The notes below the pieces were generated by a model that saw only the letters and a program-made list of their open reading frames with translations, was not told the DNA's origin and ran no database searches. Source: Gulosibacter hominis (GTDB lineage Bacteria; Actinomycetota; Actinomycetes; Actinomycetales; Microbacteriaceae). From it: a DNA stretch of 52,457 bases. Each line of letters begins with the position of its first letter. The first letter of the stretch is position 1. A program made the translations under genes and the position numbers. Below, one piece after another: positions 10,412-15,132 of this stretch. The DNA lies in contig NZ_CAJGWQ010000014.1 in NCBI RefSeq assembly GCF_904842695.1, positions 1-52,457 of the forward strand, read 5' to 3'.

Positions 10412-10433
10412 ATTCAGCGGTAGAGGAGTGACC

Positions 10434-12332
10434 GTGGGTCCGATCATTGACGTCGACCTCGACGCCATCGTTCACAACTACCTCGCATTAGCCGATGCGG
10501 TGCAGGTGCCGGTGCTATCGGTGGTGAAAGCGGATGCTTATGGGCACGGAGCGCTGCCGGTGGCGCGTGCTGTGACTCAAGCCGGATGCGGCTGGCTCGG
10601 TGTCGTTGATATTAGCGAGGCACTGGCGCTGCGCGCCGGAGGGGTGACGGATGCGCGCATCCTCACCTGGATGCATTCGCCGGCTACCGACTGGGCGATG
10701 GCATTCGACGCCGATATCGATATCGCGGTGTCGACCATTGAACAGCTTTCGCTTGTGGAGCGGGCCGCCACGAAGTTTTGCGGTAAAGGCACCAGAGTTC
10801 CGCGGGTGCACCTCAAACTCGATACTGGCCTGGGGCGTAATGGCGCCACCGCCAAGACCTGGCGGGCATTGATTGCGCAGGCGGCCGAGGCTGATCGTGC
10901 CGGAGTGTTGCGTGTGTGCGGCCTGATGAGCCACCTTTCGGGCACCGGTGCCGCTGAAGATGTGCAGCAGGGCAAGCAGTTTGCTGCTGCCCGCGAGCTG
11001 GCGCAGGAAGCTGGTCTGCACATCGAACACGCTCACATCGCCGCTACCGCCGGCGCCATGAAATATCCGCAAATGCGACACGACCTGGTGCGGTTGGGTA
11101 TTTCGCTGTACGGCCTCGCCCCTGAAGAATCGGGTGCGGCGGATGCGCTCAAGCTGCGTCCGGCGCTGCGGCTGCGGGCACCCATTCGTCGTTTTGATAA
11201 TCGCTGGGCTGTGGCAGTCGGTGAGGGCGACGGACTACCACCGCTCGTATCGGCACTGCCTCCGCTTGTCGACTCGCAGGGCACTTACTGGAAAATTGAC
11301 CGGATGGGGCCGCTGCACCTGTATTTGTCACCCATGGGGGATGTGCCGGTCGACGAGAGCGCGGCGACAGCAGCGCCCGCGCGCGAGCTCGTTGTTATCG
11401 GCCACGACCGAAATCAGGACGGTGAACTCGTCGGCGCCGACGCGGACGACTGGGCGCGGGCTGGCGGCACGATCAACTATGAAATCACCACGCGACTCAC
11501 CCGCCGCATCCTGCGTGACTACGGTGGGCATGCGGCAGCCGAGGGCACCAATATTGCCTGGCCGCCGATGGAAGAGTCGGAGCAGCGCAGCAAGCGTTCG
11601 ATCACCGCGCCGCTGCGCGAGGCGGTTATCGATCTCGAACTTTTGCAGCGCCGGCTCACGCGCCTAACGCAGCGGTCGCTCGCGGTGGGGGCGCAGCGCC
11701 GCAGCGCCGAGTTTGGTGTGGACGTGTCATCGGATGCGTACGGTCACGGTCTCGACCAGATTTTGCCGTATGTGCGCAGCTCGGGGCTGCCGATTGTGGC
11801 GCGCACCCGCACCGATATGGACGCGCTCGAACGTCGCGGCGTGACAGGGCACTATTTCCCCGACGCGCCCTCGGCCACCAGGGGAGTGTACGGTCTTGAC
11901 CCGCGCGAACCGCTGCCGCCGACGCTGTCGCTGGTGAGCGAATTGGTGAGCGTGAAGCGGGTTTCTGCCGGGCAGCGGGTGAGCTACGGCTACGAGTGGA
12001 CCGCGTCGAAGTCGACGACGCTCGGGCTTGTGCCACTCGGCTATGCGGATGCGCTGCCGCGCAGCGCTTTCGGTAAAGCTCAGGTGATGGTTGCCGGCTG
12101 GCCGGCACCGATCGTTGGCCGAATTGCGATGGACCAGGTGGTGGTCGATCTCGGCGATCGTGAATGCTGGCCGGGGATGCGCGTGCAGGTGTGGGGTAGT
12201 GCCGGGAATGATCTCAGCCTCAGCCAGTGGGCTACCTGGACGGGTTGGTCGCCCGAGGCGCTGTGCGCGAATCTCGGTAGCCGGGTGGAGCGCCGCTACC
12301 GTGGCCGGCAGGTCATGGTGGAGGTGAAATGA
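10434..12332 (+). CDS. alr: Double-length alanine racemase with complementary half-sites
   Basis: Alanine racemase makes D-alanine for peptidoglycan. It is normally about 370 residues and works as a dimer whose active site takes residues from both chains. This protein is 632 residues from GTG 10434, after an AGAGGAG site. Half 1 (1 to about 365) has a full PLP barrel with K32 in VVKADAYGHG, and the C-terminal GTINYE with Y349 (Tyr354 equivalent). Its VSYG loop is missing and GYADG is changed to GEGDG. Half 2 (about 400-632) has a much shortened barrel where the lysine is replaced (DVSSDAYGHG, S432). It keeps VSYG (Y518), GYAD (Y537) and AMDQ (M566, D567), but lacks the Tyr354 equivalent. I infer a fused pseudo-heterodimer with one complete site. 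No frameshift is visible. The stop overlaps tsaE. Confidence 0.88.
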   Translation: MGPIIDVDLDAIVHNYLALADAVQVPVLSVVKADAYGHGALPVARAVTQAGCGWLGVVDISEALALRAGGVTDARILTWMHSPATDWAMAFDADIDIAVSTIEQLSLVERAATKFCGKGTRVPRVHLKLDTGLGRNGATAKTWRALIAQAAEADRAGVLRVCGLMSHLSGTGAAEDVQQGKQFAAARELAQEAGLHIEHAHIAATAGAMKYPQMRHDLVRLGISLYGLAPEESGAADALKLRPALRLRAPIRRFDNRWAVAVGEGDGLPPLVSALPPLVDSQGTYWKIDRMGPLHLYLSPMGDVPVDESAATAAPARELVVIGHDRNQDGELVGADADDWARAGGTINYEITTRLTRRILRDYGGHAAAEGTNIAWPPMEESEQRSKRSITAPLREAVIDLELLQRRLTRLTQRSLAVGAQRRSAEFGVDVSSDAYGHGLDQILPYVRSSGLPIVARTRTDMDALERRGVTGHYFPDAPSATRGVYGLDPREPLPPTLSLVSELVSVKRVSAGQRVSYGYEWTASKSTTLGLVPLGYADALPRSAFGKAQVMVAGWPAPIVGRIAMDQVVVDLGDRECWPGMRVQVWGSAGNDLSLSQWATWTGWSPEALCANLGSRVERRYRGRQVMVEVK

Positions 12333-12826
12333 GCGAGGTGCAGCTGACCGTTGCCGATTCGGCCGCGATGCATCGACTCGGTGCCGCTCTCGCGCAGCTG
12401 TGCGAGGCTGGCGACGTGGTGGTGCTCACGGGGGAGCTCGGGGCGGGAAAGACCACGCTAACGCGCGGTTTTGGTGAGGCACTGGATGTGCGCGGCACGG
12501 TTGCCAGCCCCACCTTCGTGATTGCCCGCACCCATCCCGCGCTCGGAGACGGCCCGGCGCTCATCCACGTGGATGCTTACCGGCTGAGCTCGGCACTCGA
12601 GCTTGATGATCTCGATCTCGACCTGGATGCATCCATCACCGTGATCGAGTGGGGTGCCGAGATGGTTTCGGCCCTTACCGACAGCTGGCTCGAGGTGTTG
12701 ATCGAGCGGCCCACGGGCACACCGGCCGCCGCTGACGAGCTCGAACAGCCGCGTCTGGTGACGGTTCGTGCCGTGGGTGGGCGATGGCAGCCCTCGCAGC
12801 TTGCGGGGCTATCGGCTGCGCTTTGA
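12329..12826 (+). CDS. tsaE: tRNA t6A biosynthesis ATPase TsaE
   Basis: TsaE is the small ATPase of the TsaB-TsaD-TsaE complex, which installs threonylcarbamoyl on A37 of ANN-decoding tRNAs. The 165-residue protein has the P-loop GELGAGKTT at 35-43, then VASPTFVI and HVDAYRL, and VIEWGAEM near the C-terminal core; all are family landmarks. Its ATG overlaps the alr stop codon (ATGA), showing coupling to the racemase gene. tsaB follows after 51 bp and probably has its own start site. It is slightly longer than E. coli TsaE, with a variable C-terminus. Confidence 0.94.
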   Translation: MSEVQLTVADSAAMHRLGAALAQLCEAGDVVVLTGELGAGKTTLTRGFGEALDVRGTVASPTFVIARTHPALGDGPALIHVDAYRLSSALELDDLDLDLDASITVIEWGAEMVSALTDSWLEVLIERPTGTPAAADELEQPRLVTVRAVGGRWQPSQLAGLSAAL

Positions 12827-12877: not shown

Positions 12878-13504
12878 ATGTTTCTTGCAATCGATACCTC
12901 GGCCGGCACCGATGTTGCGGTGGTGACCGACGCCGGGCGGTTGCTCGCCGAATATCGCCTGCCGGATGCGCGGCGGCACGCTGAAGCAGTGGGTGTTGCG
13001 ATCGAACTGGTGCTGCGGGATGCGGGGCTGCGTCCGCGACACCTCGACGGCATTGTTTGTGGCATGGGACCGGGGCCGTTTACCGGTTTGCGGGTGGGTG
13101 TGGCCGCGGCCCGCACCTTTGCGTTCGCTGCCGGTATTCCGCTGCGTCCGGTTGCCAGTCACGATGCAATCGCGCACGAATGGCGACATGGTCACGATCA
13201 TGCCGGCCCGGTTTTGGTGACCACGGATGCGCGCCGGCGCGAGCTGGCCGCATCCCGATACGAACACGGTGAGCTGCACTCGCGCGCGGGATTCACGCTG
13301 ATTGCACCGGACGAAGTGGCCGGTATTCTCGCCGCCGATCCCGAGCTCGCCCGGGCGGATGCGCGCCAGGTTTCGGCGCACCATCTCACGCTCGCCTGGC
13401 TCGAGGCGCAGCAGGCGCAGCTGCCCGAAATTTCCGATGACATCCTCTATTTGCGTGCGCCCGATGCGAAACCCGGGGCGCAGCCGAAGCGAGTGACCGC
13501 ATGA
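12878..13504 (+). CDS. tsaB: tRNA t6A complex dimerisation subunit TsaB
   Basis: TsaB is the inactive ASKHA-fold partner that dimerises with TsaD in t6A synthesis. The 208-residue protein starts [15 protein letters not shown] and has the [21 protein letters not shown] segment typical of TsaB. It is too short for, and lacks, the HxxxH metal site of TsaD, as expected. Its stop overlaps the start of the rimI-tsaD gene (GCATGA), so all subunits of the complex are made from adjacent coupled genes. Confidence 0.93.
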
Positions 13505-15132
13505 CTCAGCAGCCAACAACCCAGCAAATGTCAACGCAGCCTGCCATTCGCCCCGCCACCGCGGCAGACCTGCCGCAGCTGGTTGCACTCGACGAGCAGT
13601 CATTTCCACAAGCGTCGTGGAGCGAGGCCGCATTTGCCAGCGAACTTGCCAGCGAACACACCGGGTATTGGGTGGCCGAACTGGCCGGAACCATCGTTGG
13701 TGCAGTGGGGATGCTCGCGGCGGCCGGCGCAGGAGAGGGTGATGTGCAGACCATCGCCGTTGCGCCCGAGTATCGCCGGCGCGGGCTCGCCACCCGGCTG
13801 CTGCGCGAGGCGACCGCCTGGGCGGAGAGCCGCGGCACGAAGCAGGTGTTCCTCGAAGTGCGTGAAACCGGCACCCCGGCGCGCACACTCTACGAATCGC
13901 TCGGGTTCACCGAGATTGGGCGCCGCGAAAATTATTATCCGGCCGAGCAATGTGCGGCGATCGTGATGCGCGCCGATGCGCACCAGCTGCTGACCGCGAT
14001 CGAAGCGAGGCTGCGCGCGGGCGCTGCCGAACAGCCACTTGTGCTCGGTATCGAAACGAGCTGTGATGAGACCGGCGTCGGGATTGTGCGCGGCCGCCAG
14101 CTGCTCGCAAACGCCGTGGCCTCATCAATGGATGAGCACGCCAAATACGGGGGTGTGGTGCCAGAAGTTGCAGCCCGGGCACATGCCGATTCGATGGTGC
14201 CGGTGCTGCGACAGGCGCTCGATGAGGCCGGTGTCGAGCTACACGATATTGACGCGGTTGCCGTCACTGCTGGCCCCGGGCTCGCCGGCGCTCTCATGGT
14301 GGGAGTGGGGGCCGCGAAAGCGCTCGCGGCCGCCACTGGCAAACCCCTCTACGGCGTTAATCACCTGGTTGGACATGTTGCTGCCGATCTTTTGCGTGAT
14401 GAGGGTGCCGCCATCGAATTCCCGGCGATCGCGCTGCTGGTTTCGGGCGGGCACACCTCGCTGATCCGAGTCGATTCGCTCACCGGCGACTCACGAATGC
14501 TCGGCGAAACCATTGACGATGCGGCCGGTGAAGCCTTCGACAAGGTGGCGCGAGTGCTCGGGCTGCCGTACCCCGGCGGCCCGCATATCGACCGCGTTGC
14601 TGCTGAGGGAGATCCCGGGGCCTTCACATTCCCGCGCGGGCTGACGCATCCCAAAGACCGTGACCGGCACCGGTTCGATTTTTCGTTTTCGGGGCTCAAA
14701 ACCTCGGTGGCGCGCACGGTCGAAGGCTACGCCGATCGCGACGAAGCCGTTCCGGTGGCGGATATTGCCGCAAGCTTCCGCGAGGCCGTAGCCGATGTGC
14801 TGCTCACCAAAGCAATCGACGCCTGCCAGCATGAGGGTATTCCACGGCTGCTGCTCGGTGGCGGCGTGGTGGCCAATGCGCGGGTGCGTGAACTTGCCGA
14901 ACAGCGTTGCGCGGCAGCCGGCGTATCGCTGCACGTGCCGCCACTGTCACTGTGCACCGATAACGGCGCCATGATTGCCGCATTCGGTGCCGAACTGGTT
15001 GCTGCTGGTCGCGCGCCCTCGCCGGTGAGTTTTGCTGCCGACTCCACCCTGCCGATGACGTGTGCCCAGGTGGTTACAGGCGCATCCGAACTGGCACCGG
15101 TAACCGGCACCGATACGGAAACGACCCGTTAA
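13501..15132 (+). CDS. tsaD: RimI-TsaD fusion: N-acetyltransferase plus t6A transferase
   Basis: This 543-residue protein joins two enzymes that are usually separate neighbours. Residues about 15-160 are a GNAT domain of the RimI type ([17 protein letters not shown] acetyl-CoA loop, TLYESLGF near its end). RimI acetylates the N-terminus of ribosomal protein S18 in E. coli. Residues about 178-530 are TsaD, the threonylcarbamoyl transferase, starting [15 protein letters not shown], with metal ligands H288 and H292 in NHLVGH. There is no stop or frameshift between them. The linker is about 15 residues. Translation is coupled to tsaB. The domain assignments are firm; the substrate of the GNAT half is inferred from its position. 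Confidence 0.93.

Follow-up and report, generated by a model that had tools for sequence, protein, structure and literature searches.

The fused alanine racemase locus

The window, a stretch of 52,457 nucleotides from Gulosibacter hominis, carries at 10434–12332 of its forward strand a gene for a fused alanine racemase (Alr), the translation of which gives 632 residues followed by a stop codon. A putative ribosome-binding site, AGGAG, is located at 10424–10428 (+), 5 bases 5′ of the GTG start at 10434; the start codons of orthologues lie at or near the matching place and support this start weakly, as the script picked them for that position. The upstream neighbours are an ACPS gene and a glmS-like gene that encodes SIS and glutamine amidotransferase domains. 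Downstream are found tsaE (12329–12826, +; Pfam TsaE), whose ATG start makes a 4-base overlap with the end of alr, then a TsaD-family gene (tsaB by its place) and a GNAT–TsaD fusion. The latter, at 13501–15132 (+), joins a RimI-like GNAT acetyltransferase to TsaD in a single ORF of 543 residues.

The fused protein consists of two unequal halves, H1 and H2. H1 begins with a complete Alr barrel, residues 1–245 (10434–11168, +), approximately delimited by the PF01168 match at residues 7–230 and by the table of active-site residues. This barrel contains K32, Y36, K128, R135, H167, T205, R220 and G222, of which K32, encoded at 10527–10529 (+), corresponds to the PLP lysine Lys39 (Geobacillus numbering). 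The C-terminal domain of H1 (11169–11543, +) is degenerate, as seen in the residue table and in a weak PF00842 match at 11367–11522. It is devoid of the VSYG loop, the GYADG tyrosine, R290, R309 and the MDQ motif, and retains I347 and Y349, the latter (Tyr354) being encoded at 11478–11480 (+). A variable linker follows, residues 371–392 (11544–11609, +), with a mean pairwise identity of 0.220 among 15 fused proteins. H2 starts with a shortened barrel, residues 393–490 (11610–11903, +), that keeps AYGHG and displays S432 (codon 11727–11729, +) at the position of the PLP lysine; it comprises about 98 residues versus about 245 in H1. The C-terminal domain of H2, residues 491–625 (11904–12308, +), is intact according to the PF00842 match at 11925–12299 and the residue table, and carries Y518, Y537, R543, R563, M566 and D567.

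An earlier note on this DNA had placed K32, Y349, GEGDG instead of GYADG, S432, Y518, Y537, M566 and D567 at these positions, which translation and alignment bear out. Its further claims, that H1 has lost the VSYG loop, the GYADG tyrosine and MDQ, and H2 most of its barrel, agree with the residue table and the domain lengths.

Assignment to the alanine racemase family

Alanine racemase is a cell-wall enzyme, normally built of two identical chains with two shared active sites, and a much-studied antibacterial target. By family score and residues, the ORF of the window is an alanine racemase. It scores 265.6 bits with the NCBIfam model TIGR00492 (alanine racemase, alr), above the cut-off of 168. 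Both Alr domains are present in Pfam searches of the protein, with one Ala_racemase_N match (PF01168, 183.8 bits, residues 7–230) and two Ala_racemase_C stretches (PF00842, 132.1 bits), the stronger at residues 498–622; on DNA, PF00842 matches 11367–11522 at 22 bits (below cut-off) and 11925–12299 at 115.9 bits. In the PDB, the protein matches alanine racemases best. In the alignment with 1vfh, residues 6–251, 504–590 and 330–365 of the query, in that order, span one Alr subunit, so that a composite subunit is directly visible. Both catalytic bases occur in each of the 15 fused chains, K32 (Lys39) in H1 and Y518 (Tyr265′) in H2. The rule that every Alr copy contains both bases is therefore broken, with one base per half, which makes the fused protein a variant of homodimeric Alr. 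The alanine gate Tyr354 is conserved as Y349 in all 15.

Two other kinds of racemase were considered and rejected. For the VanT serine racemase, the NCBIfam scores are all below cut-off (201.7 versus 460, 109.2 versus 900 and 86.8 versus 750). The lysine and broad-specificity racemases (Lyr/Bar) share the fold and the catalytic pair with the fused Alr; they have Thr or Ala at Tyr354 in the available text of PMC3485190, whereas the tyrosine is retained in the window protein and throughout the 15 fused sequences.

Division of active-site residues between the halves

In the ordinary Alr dimer, as described in the accessible parts of three crystal-structure papers (PMC3245724, PMC3485190, PMC4517790), Lys39 and Tyr265′ belong to different subunits. 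Further PLP contacts are made by Tyr43, Arg136, Ser204, Arg219, Gly221 and Tyr354 of the chain that carries Lys39, and the partner gives Tyr284′, Arg290′, Met312′ and Asp313′, in agreement with the subunit origins given in the earlier note. Arg309 is primed in PMC3485190 and unprimed in PMC3245724, Ile352 is unprimed in PMC3245724 and its counterpart primed in PMC4517790, and PMC4517790 also primes His166 of one enzyme, its counterparts elsewhere being unprimed. For scoring, Arg309 was counted with the partner residues, and Ile352 and His166 were assigned to the own site. This gives ten own-site positions (Lys39, Tyr43, Lys129, Arg136, His166, Ser204, Arg219, Gly221, Ile352 and Tyr354) and six partner-site positions (Tyr265, Tyr284, Arg290, Arg309, Met312 and Asp313). 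Sixteen fused proteins were collected and 15 aligned, that of the window included; the copy of genome G006, broken by unread bases, was omitted.

H1 has all ten own-site residues and none of the six partner-site residues in 15/15 fused proteins. Conversely, H2 has the six partner-site residues in 15/15, together with a single own-site residue, Tyr43, in 14 of them; it scores 2/10 in the remaining one (L013), the extra letter being a fit made by the alignment. The position of the lysine in H2 is occupied by Ser (12 proteins), Thr (2) or Gly (1). Losses that had been called exactly complementary are so at 15 of the 16 scored positions across the 15 proteins, the exception being Tyr43. In the window, this tyrosine is Y436 within the AYGHG of H2. 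It is invariant in the fused proteins (15/15) and occurs also in the H2 of 5/5 split pairs of genus g77 and of 20 of the 21 readable class-two pairs (both described below), so that the loss of own-site residues by H2 is not total.

Mean pairwise identity over the 15 fused proteins amounts to 0.517 for the H1 barrel, 0.425 for the H1 C-terminal domain, 0.399 for the H2 barrel and 0.576 for the H2 C-terminal domain, the best-conserved domain of the protein. The domains needed for one site are thus the conserved ones. As a control, 78/78 ordinary Alrs of named loci retain Lys39, Tyr43, Arg136, His166, Arg219, Tyr265, Tyr284, Met312 and Asp313, and 74/78 retain Tyr354 (His in two, Trp in one, one gap), a control that is not fully independent since these loci were picked by patterns around AMDQV or KA.YGHG. 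Of nine Alrs of the family that were not picked by motif, eight retain the 16 positions in full and one lacks only Arg309. A motif did guide the choice of the 16 reference sequences in the alignment, which do not serve as a control.

Distribution and gene content

Double-length Alr homologues were sought and found in two genera. In genus g1, to which the window belongs, the fusion is present in 11/11 genomes, as one open frame in ten, that of G006 being the broken copy. In genus g73 it occupies one open frame in 9/10 genomes and is spread over two contigs in the tenth (G942). Among the matches listed for a sample of 299 genomes of the family Microbacteriaceae, the full-length fused form appears in at least 12, all from g1 (7) or g73 (5). 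In a sample of 394 genomes of the class, with up to three candidates scored per listed genome, only the window's own genome passes E 1e-60. A search of genome contigs with the single window protein found no relative, and the 80 loci listed for a contig search with the alignment comprise 78 single ordinary Alrs, two Curtobacterium tandem pairs and no fused form. A DNA pattern for a lysine-less ADAYGHG matches in 2/297 genomes of the order, a weak negative given that it misses the SDAYGHG of the window. With tblastn against plasmids, 413 records matched, none spanning 80% of the query.

In the genome of the window, PF00842 matches fall within the 10434–12332 ORF only. A second alr was looked for and rejected: there is no other Ala_racemase_C gene, and PF01168 otherwise matches two lysA genes and a YggS protein. 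Among the 11 g1 genomes, 8 have the fused gene as their sole Ala_racemase_C locus; G002 and G009 have an additional class-two pair, and G005 has an additional ordinary alr and an H2–H1 fusion. Two D-Ala–D-Ala ligase homologues above cut-off in the window genome point to a requirement for D-Ala, and no match there exceeds the cut-off for a D-amino acid transaminase. An aminodeoxychorismate lyase homologue (L168; 230.5 bits, below the cut-off of 278) may supply D-Ala, so that the argument for essentiality of the fused alr is not closed. The ligase homologues and the two lysA genes, all above cut-off, lie at L170, L171, L003 and L004 of this 2.34 Mb genome.

Tandem and split pairs at the same locus

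A TsaE match directly downstream is common to the fused genes (15/15), the split pairs of genus g77 (5/5), tandem pairs (20/20) and single-copy loci (8/9), and is found at none of 23 class-two loci. The tandem set comprises 18 of 20 fetched places, chosen from top matches, and two Curtobacterium loci. Its copies were labelled by residue 354 and ordered by their coordinates. The downstream copy is always devoid of Tyr354 (Asp in 16 pairs, Glu in 4); upstream, residue 354 is Tyr in 19 pairs and Trp in one. These tandem full-length alr genes, with Asp or Glu for Tyr354 downstream in 20/20, lie at L128–L147 (except L136 and L144), L052 and L074. In 4/20 pairs, two of them from Curtobacterium, Asp313 is replaced by Asn in the upstream copy, and both copies are there also without Lys129; on sequence, the Asn for Asp313 is the beginning of a complementary loss. 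At L140–L143 and L146, the frame of the downstream tandem alr overlaps the TsaE match by about 450–545 bases, which suggests an Alr–TsaE fusion in these genomes.

In genus g77, 5/5 sampled genomes have a two-gene split pair with largely the division of the fused protein. The H1 of these pairs has 10/10 own-site residues and still 3/6 partner-site residues (the letters of Tyr284, Arg309 and Asp313 remain), and H2 has 2/10 and 5–6/6, respectively; the division is therefore less complete than in the fused proteins. Of the 47 pairs, namely 5 from g77, 22 of class two and 20 in tandem, 43 have a start codon for the second gene that gives an overlap of exactly four bases with the first, the exceptions being L033 (−10), L036 (−1), L152 (−8) and L159 (+10). 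Since the script took the start closest to the stop, small values are favoured, though no single exact value is. These overlaps suggest translational coupling, and a single minor change of frame would presumably be enough to fuse the genes. The history of the locus would then run from duplication to a translationally coupled gene pair and to fusion. Such a passage from heterodimer to fusion predicts separate-gene pairs divided in much the same way, and these are indeed found.

Origin of the second half

In the FastTree barrel analysis, the H1 of g77 falls among upstream tandem copies (0.877), and 14 of 22 class-two H1 join the downstream tandem copies (0.925), the other eight being separate. 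FastTree places the fused H2 and the H2 of the G005 H2–H1 fusion on one long branch. In the FastTree of C-terminal domains, the H2 of g77 is joined to downstream tandem copies (0.84), contrary to a careful tree in which it stands apart from them. In this careful tree, made with 10 of the 15 fused H2, the latter form one group (100/100), joined to six upstream tandem copies (97/99) by a very long branch of 1.72. None of five groupings is rejected by AU tests (p 0.276–0.331). On these trees, H2 may descend either from a duplicate in its own lineage or from another Alr paralogue. A repeated origin of the two-part racemase state is plausible from these sequences. FastTree also groups the tandem pairs of two genomes of the family with the Curtobacterium tandem pairs, which points to Microbacteriaceae as the family.

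A predicted composite site in each chain

Comparison of these sequences supports the interpretation of the earlier note, a pseudo-dimer of complementary halves. The fused alr very probably encodes the alanine racemase of the cell as a covalent pseudo-dimer with one composite site per chain. H1 would fold as a normal Alr barrel and provide the PLP lysine K32, the PLP-binding residues and the Tyr354 gate. H2 would be a cut-down Alr whose barrel acts mainly as a scaffold, and its C-terminal domain would give the opposite base Tyr265′ (Y518), Tyr284′ and Met312′ for binding of the substrate, Asp313′ and two entry arginines. H1 and H2 of the same chain are expected to pair like the two chains of the ordinary dimer, with one working site per chain, one PLP on K32 and a second site dead on both sides. 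As Tyr354 is kept, the enzyme would be active on alanine. The tyrosine of AYG.G, which contacts the PLP phosphate, counts against the pseudo-dimer model, since its conservation in H2 (15/15) is not obviously needed by a pure scaffold. The less complete division of the g77 split pairs counts against it as well.

The main rival is a domain swap, in which H1 of one chain would pair in trans with H2 of another to form an obligate dimer with two sites, so that the chain would not be a self-contained enzyme. Pairing in cis or in trans implies the same division of residues and the sequence, variable linker included, fits both. Fusions in both orders (H1–H2 here, H2–H1 in G005) are easiest to reconcile with pairing within the chain; this is not decisive, and the swap keeps a small but appreciable probability. 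The complete barrel of H1, with its ten own-site residues, might also evoke an enzyme made of H1 alone, as a homodimer or a monomer, with H2 as a decayed or regulatory appendix. Such an enzyme is very improbable, because H1 is deprived of the second base Tyr265 and of Tyr284, Arg290, Arg309, Met312 and Asp313 in 15/15 proteins, and these six residues are invariant in H2, whose C-terminal domain is the most conserved.

Were the protein a different PLP enzyme, or a racemase acting on amino acids other than alanine, it would recall other Alr-like pairs of the family that have Asp or Glu at Tyr354 and may use other substrates. However, Tyr354 and Ile352, which belong to the entryway and the gate for alanine specificity, are conserved in 15/15 fused proteins, the gene occupies the place of alr in its relatives, directly before tsaE, and the window genome has no further Alr-type gene; this alternative appears improbable. 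As for an assembly error or a frameshift joining two genes, its likelihood is practically nil. The same open frame recurs in 10/11 genomes of g1, the other being broken by unread bases, and in 9/10 of g73, and the frame and the losses are shared by 14 aligned orthologues that are 43–61% identical to the window protein. A sequencing error, raised in the earlier note, is refuted by this recurrence across both genera.

Relation to known enzymes

With the homodimeric Alrs of Geobacillus (1SFT, 1L6G) and Streptomyces lavendulae (1VFH), the fused protein shares the barrel, the C-terminal domain and the Tyr354 gate, and its ten own-site and six partner-site positions occur once per predicted working site. 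It differs in being composed of two unequal, complementarily damaged copies, with one predicted site per chain versus two per homodimer.

Serine palmitoyltransferase is a PLP enzyme of fold type I. Its SPT1/SPT2 heterodimer has one partner without the PLP lysine and a single site presumed at the interface, the other members of this family being homodimers, according to the available part of PMC6148460. This heterodimer is the nearest system in its working, by analogy: its lysine-less partner resembles H2, which is without the lysine in 15/15, and an interface site is predicted here. It differs by its fold and reaction, by its separate, unfused genes and by losses on one partner only, as far as they are described in that source. 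In trypanosomatid prozymes and in the antizyme inhibitor of ornithine decarboxylase, a dead paralogue pairs with a live one, in a regulatory role and from separate genes. The window protein would resemble them in this dead–live pairing; unlike it, these systems are not obligate fused enzymes.

The crystal-structure papers cited above present the Alr active site as the product of a homodimer, though one Alr is a monomer in solution (PMC4517790). Among the matches listed in the open-access literature, most subscription journals being outside this scope, no earlier description of a heterodimeric or fused alanine racemase was found. A modelling study of 2024, in its available part, considers the passage from homodimer to heterodimer after duplication as likely even under neutral evolution (PMC11066126). 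The single, tandem, split-pair and fused states at one locus make it testable how and why homodimers become heterodimers. In an Alr with one site, the halves can moreover be mutated separately, which is impossible in a homodimer.

Class-two racemases

The class-two racemases have the order H2–H1 and are represented by 22 split pairs in the selected loci, with a division similar to that of the fused proteins; residues were counted from at most the five commonest letters per position. Class-two H1 keeps Lys39 in 22/22 and has Asp (14) or Glu (8) at residue 354. Tyr265, Arg290, Arg309 and Met312 are lost in the readable cases, but residue 284 is Tyr in 9 of these H1 and residue 313 is Asp in 21. 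None of the 21 readable class-two H2 has the lysine (Arg in 19, Ala in 2); out of 22, 21 retain Tyr265, all 22 Met312 and 20 Asp313. The H2–H1 pair of G005 is one ORF, a frame of 595 residues at L041 2679–4466 (−), and that of G240 is apparently one ORF as well, a frame of 832 residues at G240:C1 1642657–1644576 (−).

The acidic residue at Tyr354 hints at a substrate different from alanine, possibly a diamino acid, and paired racemases of this type are leads to unassigned D-amino acid enzymes. More broadly, it is conceivable, if somewhat doubtful, that Microbacteriaceae have more than once turned the homodimeric Alr fold into an obligate two-part, one-site enzyme (coupled pairs, H1–H2 fusions and H2–H1 fusions), and that class two, with its Asp or Glu at Tyr354 and its location away from tsaE and, in at least one genome, beside gatD–murT-like genes, supplies the cell wall with another D-amino acid, perhaps of the diamino type.

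Class-two loci, including L035, L037, L038, L152, L155, L160 and L161, adjoin a gyrase B-type gene. On the opposite side of L155 lie GATase_3 (GatD-like) and MurT genes, as identified by Pfam, and a similar-looking arrangement is seen by eye in L038, L152 and L160. In two g1 genomes, class two adjoins a gene for a sugar-transfer associated ATP-grasp protein (PF14397; L040 4547–5557 and L041 4476–5522).
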